A stretch of 53,671 nucleotides of DNA, from NCBI RefSeq assembly GCF_944385615.1, contig NZ_CALWXV010000013.1:1-53671 (forward strand). Direction: 5' to 3'. How positions within the stretch are numbered: the first letter of the stretch is position 1; each line of letters opens with the position of its first letter. The notes below the pieces were generated by a model. The model searched no databases. It was not told where the DNA came from and worked only from the letters and a program-made list of their open reading frames with translations. This document shows, piece by piece, positions 25,110 through 27,036 of this stretch. This DNA is from an uncultured Flavonifractor sp. (GTDB lineage: Bacteria; Bacillota; Clostridia; Oscillospirales; Oscillospiraceae). The position numbers and the translations under genes are program-made.

Positions 25110-25159
25110 GAAAAAGAAGAAGGCGCTCCCACCCTGGATGGGTTGGAACGCCTTCGTTC
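25110..25159 (-). promoter_or_regulatory. glnA leader attenuator
   Basis: Minus strand: GAAGGCG (25155-25149) and downstream bases pair with the strand ending CGCCTTC (25125-25119), with an inner ACCC/GGGT stem, then TTCTTTTTC. The 5' strand can instead fold on itself as GAACG-AAGG-CGTTC, which would break the terminator. The 17 bases 25159-25143 match 16 of 17 in the pyrG leader (27036-27020). Confidence 0.75.
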
Positions 25160-25174
25160 TCAACTGATGGTGTA

Positions 25175-25203
25175 AGTATAGTGTGAACAGGTGTGTTTGT
25201 CAA
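25175..25203 (-). promoter_or_regulatory. glnA promoter
   Basis: Minus strand -35 TTGACA (25203-25198), 17-base spacer, -10 TATACT (25180-25175). It predicts a leader of about 90 nt containing the attenuator. The remainder of 25204-25314 is A/T-rich with a 6-bp stem-loop at 25281-25299 but no clear pyrG terminator. Confidence 0.85.
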
Positions 25204-25314
25204 TGGAAAATTGAAGACCGAATGAATTTTAGGAAAGATAACAGTAGAATGGGAGTTGAGACAAGGTGAATTTTATGCAACAAGTTAAAATGGAACTTGC
25301 ATATAGGAGGCGGG

Positions 25315-26925
25315 TCAGCAAATCTCTTTTTGCCGGGCCGCCGCAGCCACAAAACCACTGAATAGAGGGTGGGGCCGGTTGGGACGGCTTTTGAACTCGG
25401 GGTGGTACTGCACCCCTACAAAGAAGGGGGAGTCGGCCAGCTCCACCGCCTCTACCAGCCGTCCGTCGGGGGACAGGCCGCTGAGGACCAGCCCGGCCCC
25501 GGTCAGTGCCTCCCGGTACTGGTTGTTGAACTCGTAGCGGTGGCGGTGGCGCTCCTGGATCAGGGGGGCGGCATAGCAGCGCTCCAGCATCGTGCCGGGT
25601 TGGATGGCGCAGGGGTAGGCCCCCAGCCGTAGGGTACCCCCCTTGTCAATCTCGTCGCTCTGGCCTGGCATGAAGTCAATGACTTTATAAGGGCAGTCCG
25701 GCTCAAACTCACCGGAGTGGGCCCCCTCCAGTCCGGCGGCGTGGCGGGCAAACTCAATGACCGCCACCTGCATCCCCAGGCAGATGCCCAGGTAGGGGAG
25801 TTTGTGCTCTCGGGCATATTGGGCGGCCAAAATCATACCCTCGATGCCCCGGGCGCCGAAACCGCCGGGTACCAGAATGCCGTCCAGACCGGCCAGCACC
25901 TGATCGCAGTTTTCCGCCGTCACGGTTTCCGAGTCGATCCAGCGGATATCCACTCGGGCGCCCAAAGGGTAGCCTGCGTGGCGGAGGGCCTCGGCCACCG
26001 ACAGATAGGCGTCATGGAGCTGAACATATTTGCCCACCAGACCAATGGTGACGGCGGAGCGGAGCCCTTTGACCCGCTCCACCAGAGCCTCCCACTCGGA
26101 TAGGTCGGGAGGTGGAGTCTGGAGGTTCAGCTCCCGGCAGACCACACTGGACAGACCGGCGGCCTCCAGCATCAGCGGGGCCTCGTAGAGGGAGGGAAGG
26201 GTGACGTTTTGGATGACGCAGTCCGGTTTTACGTTGCAGAAATCGGCAATTTTTTGGAAAATGCTCTGGTCGGTGATGGGCTCGTCGCACCGCAGAACGA
26301 TGAGGTCCGGGGAGATGCCCATGCCCTGCAATTCCTTCACCGAGTGCTGGGTGGGCTTGGACTTGTGCTCCCCGGATGCCCGCAGATAGGGGACCAGTGT
26401 GACGTGGATATACAGGGCGTTGCCCGGTGCCACCTCCCGGCCCACCTGCCGGATGGCTTCCAGAAAGGGCTGACTTTCCATGTCGCCGGTGGTACCGCCA
26501 ATTTCGGTGATGACTACGTCGGCCCCAGTCTTCTGTCCCACAGCGTAAATAAAACGCTTGATCTCGTCGGTGATGTGGGGGATGACCTGAACTGTCTTGC
26601 CCAGATATTCGCCCCGGCGCTCCTTGGCGATGACGTTGGAGTACACCCGCCCGGTGGTCAGGTTGGAGAATTGGTTCAGGTTTTCGTCAATAAAGCGTTC
26701 ATAATGGCCCAGGTCCAGATCGGTCTCCGCTCCGTCCTCTGTGACAAAGACCTCGCCGTGCTGATAGGGGCTCATGGTGCCCGGGTCTACATTGATATAA
26801 GGGTCCAGCTTCTGGGCCGCCACCTTCAGCCCCCTGGCCTTCAGCAGCCGCCCCAGAGAGGCGGCGGTGATGCCCTTGCCCAGACCGGAGACCACGCCGC
26901 CGGTCACAAAAATATACTTTGTCAT
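25315..26925 (-). CDS. pyrG: CTP synthase
   Basis: 536 residues, usual length. Synthetase domain ([39 protein letters not shown]) and class I glutaminase domain with the nucleophile in LGICLGMQ and the catalytic His/Glu in YHPEF. Converts UTP to CTP with ATP and glutamine. Start is ATG 26925 (MTKYIF), preceded by GGAGGGGAAAGG. Leader 26926-27039 holds a large attenuator. Upstream spoVAD-spoVAE run in the same direction without a clear terminator. Confidence 0.98.
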
Positions 26926-26967
26926 CCTTTCCCCTCCGATCCCGGGCGGGCCGTCTTTGACCAACCC

Positions 26968-27036
26968 GGCAAAATAAAAGCGAGGGCGTCCCAAAAAGGA
27001 GGCAGTACGGCCTCATTTTTTGGAACGCCCTCGTTC
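26968..27036 (-). promoter_or_regulatory. pyrG leader attenuator
   Basis: Minus strand: CGAGGGCG...CCAAAAA pairs with TTTTTGG...CGCCCTCG (27033-26981), with an inner GAGGC/GCCTC stem, followed by a T-rich tail CTTTTATTTTG. The 5' strand can refold as GAACG-AGGG-CGTTC, as in the glnA leader. B. subtilis pyrG is attenuated through reiterative G addition at a GGG start; no GGG lies at the predicted start here, so the trigger is probably different. Confidence 0.8.

Follow-up and report, generated by a model that had tools for sequence, protein, structure and literature searches.

A single promoter-proximal hexaloop hairpin shared by the glnA and pyrG leaders as a candidate ANTAR-dependent attenuator in an uncultured Flavonifractor

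Introduction

ANTAR domains are RNA-binding antiterminators; in the AmiR-AmiC system of Pseudomonas aeruginosa, AmiR is a pseudo-receiver with an ANTAR domain, and a glnR antiterminator is known from Clostridium saccharobutylicum. According to the available parts of the sources cited, the published eut site reads AGCAANGRRGCUY (PMC3369931), the minimal ANTAR site is a single hexaloop and eut antitermination has been argued to use two, and single hexaloops have been proposed as possible in nature, the extent of their function being left open (PMC8934654). Known ANTAR RNAs are described as dual stem-loops (PMC8164766), and published searches for ANTAR RNAs, in the portions available, used two-hairpin models and would therefore miss single-hairpin sites (PMC3369931, PMC8164766).

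Two descriptions, each available in part, come close to the genes considered here. ANTAR sites were predicted before glutamate and glutamine synthase genes, e.g., in Desulfotomaculum, and these predictions resemble the present set in their gene classes and in that translational cases were also suggested, but they used a two-hairpin model that is blind to single sites (PMC3369931); pyrG and CTP do not occur in the text of that paper. In Clostridium thermocellum an ANTAR protein lies in the ammonia-assimilation cluster and was suggested to act as an ammonia-sensitive antiterminator (PMC4676874); the passage on this organism names no RNA site, whereas here a hairpin is identified.

In the window (the whole 53,671-nucleotide stretch of DNA that was analysed, from an uncultured Flavonifractor sp.), the leaders of glnA and pyrG share a short sequence for which the first-pass annotation knew of no described element, a view that is abandoned here because an ANTAR target with a similar loop and a similar position is given in the available text of PMC3369931 and PMC8934654. 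It is very probable that an RNA-binding antitermination protein encoded beside glnA lands on the shared sequence, whose loop, RANGGY, resembles the ANTAR hexaloop of the eut site. As in the targets of EutV in Enterococcus faecalis, as far as the available text describes them, a hexaloop with G at position 4 (G4) on a short stem overlaps the 5' strand of a terminator, and as in the EutV system an ANTAR protein is encoded nearby and nitrogen genes are concerned (PMC3369931, PMC8934654). Unlike the EutV targets, which have two hexaloops, the element has one, with which the RNA is predicted to begin; either A or G occupies loop position 1, and the receiver domain of the protein is without the phospho-aspartate.

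The shared strand in the window

The genes on the minus strand are arranged in the order pyrG, glnA, ANTAR gene, gltB and a gltD-like gene (Table 1), the last presumably gltD, a name suggested by its position. The strand GAACGARGGCGTTCCAA was found in the leaders of both glnA and pyrG, and the two 17-nt copies (25159-25143 and 27036-27020, both on the minus strand) match at 16 of 17 positions, in agreement with the first-pass annotation. With up to three mismatches allowed, the strand has three matches in the window versus 0.33 expected from shuffles, the third (26978-26994, plus strand) being the complementary arm of the pyrG terminator. A third genomic copy, GAACAAAGGCGTTC, is present in the leader of the second glnA with the same kind of terminator, while a one-mismatch copy inside an ABC transporter permease gene (L004) was dropped as chance. 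Promoter-like sequence lies just before each copy, with 15 nt (glnA) or 9 nt (pyrG) from the -10 box to the hairpin, so that the transcript would begin almost with the hairpin. The earlier reading, which is supported in part, included neither these promoters, nor the third copy, nor the ANTAR gene after glnA.

Table 1. Features of the glnA-pyrG region discussed in the text (positions in the window).
Feature	Position	Strand	Basis or remark
pyrG promoter-like sequence, TTGACA-18-TAAAGT	27046..27075	-	10/12 consensus bases
pyrG hexaloop hairpin, GAAC-GAGGGC-GUUC	27023..27036	-	comparison with relatives
pyrG leader terminator and U-rich tract	26971..27033, stem 27033-26981	-	fold -37.4 kcal/mol
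pyrG, CTP synthase	25315..26925	-	Pfam CTP_synth_N 1.4e-123, GATase 8.2e-40
glnA promoter-like sequence, TTGACA-17-TATACT	25175..25203	-	11/12 consensus bases
glnA hexaloop hairpin, GAAC-GAAGGC-GUUC, proposed ANTAR site and antiterminator	25146..25159	-	comparison with relatives
glnA leader terminator and U-rich tract	25110..25155, stem 25155-25119	-	fold -31.2 kcal/mol
glnA, type I glutamine synthetase	23744..25075	-	Pfam Gln-synt_C 1.8e-138
ANTAR regulator P0001, pseudo-receiver and ANTAR domain, proposed trans-acting factor	23127..23669	-	Pfam ANTAR 3.7e-17
Possible further hexaloop hairpin before gltB, GAGAC-AAGGUA-GUCUC	23093..23108	-	2 nt upstream of terminator 23090-23064 with T6
gltB, glutamate synthase large subunit	18456..22997	-	Pfam
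gltD-like glutamate synthase small subunit	16996..18453	-	Pfam Fer4_20, Pyr_redox_2

Terminator and hairpin folds

Folding of the whole leaders gave -38.6 kcal/mol for glnA (z -5.72) and -39.6 kcal/mol for pyrG (z -5.31), and in both leaders the hairpin overlaps the 5' strand of an intrinsic terminator; these folds bear out the first-pass proposal that each copy forms the 5' strand of a leader terminator, and the inner stems of the two leaders differ, as had also been noted. Folded on itself, the strand reaches -5.5 kcal/mol in glnA and -4.6 kcal/mol in pyrG. The glnA hairpin alone beats most shuffles (4/200 reach its energy) and the pyrG hairpin alone is no better than shuffles (55/200 reach it, z -0.42), and the hairpin is therefore argued from the comparison of relatives. 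By fold energies the terminator is much the stronger of the two structures, so that the hairpin would need a stabiliser to win, for which an ANTAR protein is the natural candidate.

Refolding of the strand had been proposed from the outset; a mutually exclusive pair of hairpin and terminator is supported, but the five-pair tetraloop suggested for it (GAACG-A[A/G]GG-CGTTC) is rejected, because the fifth pair is absent from 28 of the 48 aligned sites. Relatives instead support a 4-bp stem with a six-base loop, which is RANGGY in most sites. In the pyrG leader of G118, U replaces the C of the loop, and the base that pairs with it in the terminator has changed from G to A.

The ANTAR protein encoded beside glnA

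The ANTAR domain of P0001 scores 62.3 bits against a Pfam cut-off of 27.3, and the second glnA of the genome is followed by a second ANTAR gene, so that both glnA copies are ANTAR-flanked. The model of this 180-aa protein predicts a receiver fold, a long helix and a three-helix ANTAR domain (AlphaFold pLDDT 89, pTM 0.64), and in the fold comparison Rv1626, EutV and AmiR came out best (TM-scores 0.44-0.59 to the query); like AmiR of P. aeruginosa, P0001 thus combines a pseudo-receiver with an ANTAR domain. The phospho-acceptor aspartate was not found in the receiver, where Gly occupies that place in 10 of 10 aligned proteins (G55, invariant, equated with Asp54 of EutV by our matching of position and strand). 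With no phospho-acceptor, the signal would probably come through a protein partner, in the manner of AmiC and AmiR, rather than from a kinase, and it probably reports nitrogen or glutamine status.

Regarding RNA recognition, the EutV residues that touch RNA, among which M172 is essential, are as given in the available text of PMC8934654; by our own residue matching, K149, E160 and M172 are kept in P0001, while R142, K143, K147, R168, N173 and R175 are changed and Y164 is replaced by His. The changed contacts might point to a different mode of recognition or to a lower affinity, and they are the main weakness of naming P0001 as the binder.

Of the 150 family genomes, 42 encode relatives of P0001 (E<=1e-10) and 90 have some ANTAR domain. 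Among the 118 loci listed from a pattern scan (see below), none longer than 8 kb, 21 encode an ANTAR protein, compared with fewer than one expected by our estimate if each genome has one or two. Among 31 ANTAR-negative genomes, a small sample of four has glnA (E<=1e-80); three of these leaders are without the hairpin and that of G136 has it. In G136, the hairpin-led glnA is followed by an asparagine synthase gene (L186; by eye), and the genome gave no ANTAR hit, which means either that the assembly is without the ANTAR gene or that another factor acts.

The changed EutV contacts and the hairpin kept in G136 would also suit a reading in which the site is the same but control by the ANTAR protein has the opposite sign, or the hairpin is used by another RNA-binding protein. 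We consider this improbable, because the strand is shared, so that a stabilised hairpin must oppose termination, and because the ANTAR gene neighbourhood of the listed loci is strong.

Proposed mechanism

With a probability that we put at about 85%, glnA and pyrG are each preceded by a promoter-proximal, single-hexaloop, ANTAR-dependent transcription attenuator, through which the neighbouring ANTAR protein would switch both genes on. RNA polymerase would start a few nucleotides upstream of the hairpin, and the first structure to emerge would be the 4-bp hairpin with the hexaloop RANGGY; unaided, this strand would be captured by the downstream complement, giving the intrinsic terminator and a stop before glnA or pyrG. 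The active ANTAR protein, encoded after glnA, would bind the hexaloop, hold the hairpin and block the terminator, turning on glnA and pyrG, and the paralogue after the second glnA probably acts likewise. Since binding would permit readthrough, activation is the likely sign of control.

Conservation of the hairpin in glnA leaders

Forty of 46 listed ANTAR loci were fetched, of which three had no glnA in reach and two had a partial glnA; 35 leaders from ANTAR loci and the window's own gave a set of 36 glnA leaders, 35 of them thus chosen for adjoining ANTAR genes and all related to one another. The anchor C[AG]ANG[AG]NG is present near the promoter in 29 of the 36, in 28 at 7-19 nt past a -10-like box (acceptance was for a box 5-20 nt upstream of the anchor, L082 being kept without a box, and eight further anchor matches in these leaders were dropped), and it is expected by chance in such a promoter-proximal stretch in 1-2% of leaders by our estimate; seven of the 36 leaders have no anchor at all.

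The closing C-G pair and G4 were part of the anchor, which did not require stem pairing. When every one of the 70 anchor matches from glnA and pyrG leaders is counted (64 distinct, none dropped), 84.4% of cells are paired, counting the three pairs beyond the fixed closing pair, versus 56.2% in shuffled pairing, a level that none of 1000 shuffles reached. The 48 selected sites, with pyrG sites from 16 leaders picked after hairpins had been seen and eight of 33 pyrG anchor matches dropped, form the four-pair stem in 97.4% versus 83.7% shuffled, with a covariation of 0.600 versus 0.286, and the unselected count points the same way; three of the four pairs vary on both sides, i.e., show compensatory change. 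The 23 selected glnA sites alone gave a pairing of 97.8% versus 93.9% and a covariation modestly above shuffles (0.447 versus 0.346), the lower figure being due to the purines that these stems retain in one arm. Covariation is also seen in the terminators of 17 glnA leaders (pairing 93.3% versus 89.4%, score 0.220 versus 0.141). The concern that covariation might favour the terminator stem only, raised with the first description of the motif, is answered by the kept pairing of the alternative hairpin, weaker as it is on the 23 selected glnA sites.

Hairpins of hexaloop form numbered 69 over 70 leaders, compared with nine in reversed and six in complementary sequence; this comparison and the promoter-near anchor in 28 of 36 glnA leaders are the independent support for G4, whose presence in 48 of 48 sites follows from anchor selection. 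At loop position 1, the 28 accepted glnA sites divide into 15 with A and 13 with G; in the genome analysed, both window copies have G and the second glnA has A.

Loops of this kind are found on stems of different sequence (TTTCC/GGAAG in G020 and G117, GGGAC/GUCCC elsewhere). This observation bears on a simpler explanation, that the leaders are plain constitutive attenuators whose strand was copied between them and which obey no regulator, as the 16 of 17 identical positions beside differing inner stems might suggest; together with tandem copies that have no terminator and the recurrence on nitrogen genes, both described below, the exchange of stems makes copying an unlikely account.

Genes preceded by the hairpin

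Model R1, built from 17 glnA leaders and run on 150 genomes, had matches in 56 of them, some on the opposite strand of known ones. Twenty-nine matches were picked for reading from a longer list, with many gene names assigned by eye and not by Pfam, and 20 of these precede glutamine, nitrogen or ANTAR genes. The target classes are glutamine synthetases, glutamate synthases and CTP synthase, and, named by eye, AsnA, an ammonium transporter, urease and a small ANTAR gene before guaA. Two of the 29 precede other genes, an ATP-grasp protein and a solute-binding protein, and seven are ordinary-looking terminators or ambiguous. The pyrG leader of the window is scored weakly by the glnA-derived model (25.4 bits). 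A tandem model, R2, had 33 matches; the top six are its own six building sequences and prove nothing, being training sequences, and of the six that follow, four seem unrelated, one lies before a type III glutamine synthetase gene (G031) and one is the pyrG leader of G050, which was already known.

A pattern scan of the genome collection revealed at least 120 matches at at least 118 loci, and 79 among the 120 matches listed precede glutamine, glutamate, ammonium or nitrate genes. By group (single-linkage BLAST clusters, with one representative of most, plus six single genes, named by Pfam, and the elongation factor, nitrate transporter and RidA groups named by eye), the matches listed precede genes for glutamine synthetase (32), glutamate synthase (15), NirB (nine), Amt (eight), ATP-grasp proteins (five), solute-binding proteins and NrtA-like proteins (four each), CTP synthase, AsnB, CarA and PPDK_N proteins (three each), and nitrate transporters and RidA-like proteins (two each), with a further 17 before single other genes and five without a gene called. 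The five matches listed under elongation factor G lie, by eye, inside these genes and have no T run.

The motif therefore recurs in relatives before glutamine and nitrogen genes, which supports the initial idea of a common nitrogen or glutamine factor; the lack of enrichment that was said to count against that idea was not seen. Since this gene set centres on glutamine, a metabolite-sensing RNA such as a glutamine riboswitch reading glutamine directly would also suit it, but we regard this as very unlikely: what is conserved is a hairpin of 14 nt, which is little for an aptamer, and neither the glnA nor the pyrG leader has an Rfam match at the gathering threshold, the glutamine riboswitch (glnA RNA) having no covariance match here and the three Rfam matches in the window all lying elsewhere.

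Two of the groups were located individually. The hairpin and a terminator precede circularly permuted ATP-grasp type 2 genes at L304, L293, L235, L268 and L249 and at G083:C180:749-796, and the hairpin precedes genes for PPDK_N-domain proteins at L244, L300 and L233.

pyrG leaders of relatives

Of 36 ANTAR-carrying genomes, 34 yielded a pyrG gene, and its leader was inspected directly in 30 of them and by script in the remaining four. All three leaders from the genus of the window have a single hairpin and terminator, and nine of the 34, from other genera, have two tandem hairpins without a terminator (in L108, L110 and L114 one of the two stems has only two or three pairs), with the downstream Shine-Dalgarno region paired according to our reading of single folds, partly so in L110. 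Two leaders have one hairpin copy at the pre-Shine-Dalgarno place, in two others a single copy whose stem is unrelated follows a -10 box, and no site was found in 18 of the 34, counting as such L094, L111, L113 and L116, whose hairpins of similar form were taken as incidental. Four further genomes, found in the R1 search, have a single hairpin and terminator with pyrG directly after the ANTAR gene. The link between pyrG and the hairpin thus takes at least two forms, in one of which no terminator constrains the hairpin.

Control of pyrG by CTP-sensitive reiterative transcription, with the likeness to glnA being secondary, is a mechanism described in Bacillus subtilis, suggested for Streptococcus agalactiae and known for pyrG also with a leader terminator (PMC4448216, available text), and it can practically be dismissed, as glnA has the same hairpin, other genera have tandem hexaloops ahead of the ribosome site of pyrG and no G run follows the -10 box at the expected pyrG start.

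A single promoter-proximal site

Regarding the dual design, a second hexaloop (A or G at loop position 1) was detected upstream in 1 of 32 family leaders versus 1.8 expected, and downstream in 7 of 32 versus 4.1 expected, scattered in place and sequence. A second hexaloop in single-hairpin leaders is rejected, as the upstream count is not above chance; a P1 hexaloop a short linker upstream, as in the classical arrangement, was not found in these leaders, and the -10 box leaves little room for one. Because a second hairpin was looked for and is absent, the element is filed with ANTAR target RNAs and not as a classical dual-hairpin member.

Scan matches listed at genes for glutamine synthetase, GltB, Amt, ATP-grasp, PyrG, AsnB, CarA and PPDK_N proteins (72) were compared with 15 listed at nitrate/nitrite genes, the groups being defined by gene and not by taxon and the sums being partly our own. 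In the larger group, 49 of the 72 have a -10-like box 4-18 nt upstream of the hairpin versus 21.2 in shuffles (and ten have one at 25-39 nt), and at nitrate/nitrite genes 1 of the 15 has it beside the hairpin versus 2.8 in shuffles; an A1/G4 hexaloop is present within 75 nt upstream in 7 of the 72 versus about 4.8 expected, and in 6 of the 15 versus 0.5 expected. Type III glutamine synthetases in G031 and L280 are among the exceptions with two hexaloops. From these comparisons, a single promoter-proximal site appears to be the common design at these genes, not without exceptions.

The ANTAR-type targets at nitrate/nitrite assimilation genes, which we take to be those assigned to NasT/NasR, resemble the present element in having the identical GAACAAAGGCGTTC hairpin before a terminator (L202, L262, L290 and others listed), an identity fixed by the search pattern. 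They differ in the second A1/G4 hexaloop (6/15 listed) and in the adjoining -10-like box (1/15), the site here being single and promoter-proximal.

A search of the literature for a single hexaloop with ANTAR had PMC8934654 as its sole match, and no report of pyrG under ANTAR control was found in the literature searched, subscription papers lying outside its reach. Within this literature, the single promoter-proximal hexaloop terminator as a recurrent design spread over glutamine genes appears to be new, as does the inclusion of pyrG and carA among candidate ANTAR targets, which adds CTP synthase and carbamoyl-phosphate synthase to that list. The set provides many natural single-hexaloop terminators with a built-in comparison, namely the second hairpin at nitrate genes and the pyrG leaders of sister genera, and a concrete candidate regulator for glutamine metabolism in gut Clostridia.

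We are evenly divided over a broader reading, in which one promoter-proximal ANTAR hexaloop would serve Clostridia as a general glutamine switch, read by phosphorylation-independent pseudo-receiver ANTAR proteins whose genes lie beside glnA, pyrG or gltB, and with genes that make glutamine (glnA, glnN), genes that consume it (gltB, pyrG, carA, asnB and perhaps guaA) and ammonium-uptake genes as its targets. If so, a hairpin at the 5' end of the RNA would remove the need for the recruitment hairpin of the current model.

Other elements in the window

The gap between the ANTAR gene and gltB (23058-23108, minus strand) has a possible further hairpin (Table 1), which is no more than suggestive of an ANTAR-type site and does not overlap the terminator. 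In two congeners its stem is identical and its loop is AAUGCA, and its 3' arm could alternatively pair with GRGAC in the terminator loop. A weak model match at 8683-8733 appears to be a gene-end terminator. Two molybdenum-cofactor riboswitches (Rfam RF01055) are present at 46927-47048 and 52306-52422 (minus strand), less than 5.5 kb apart, and a T-box leader (Rfam RF00230, 123.9 bits) was found at 683-889 on the plus strand.
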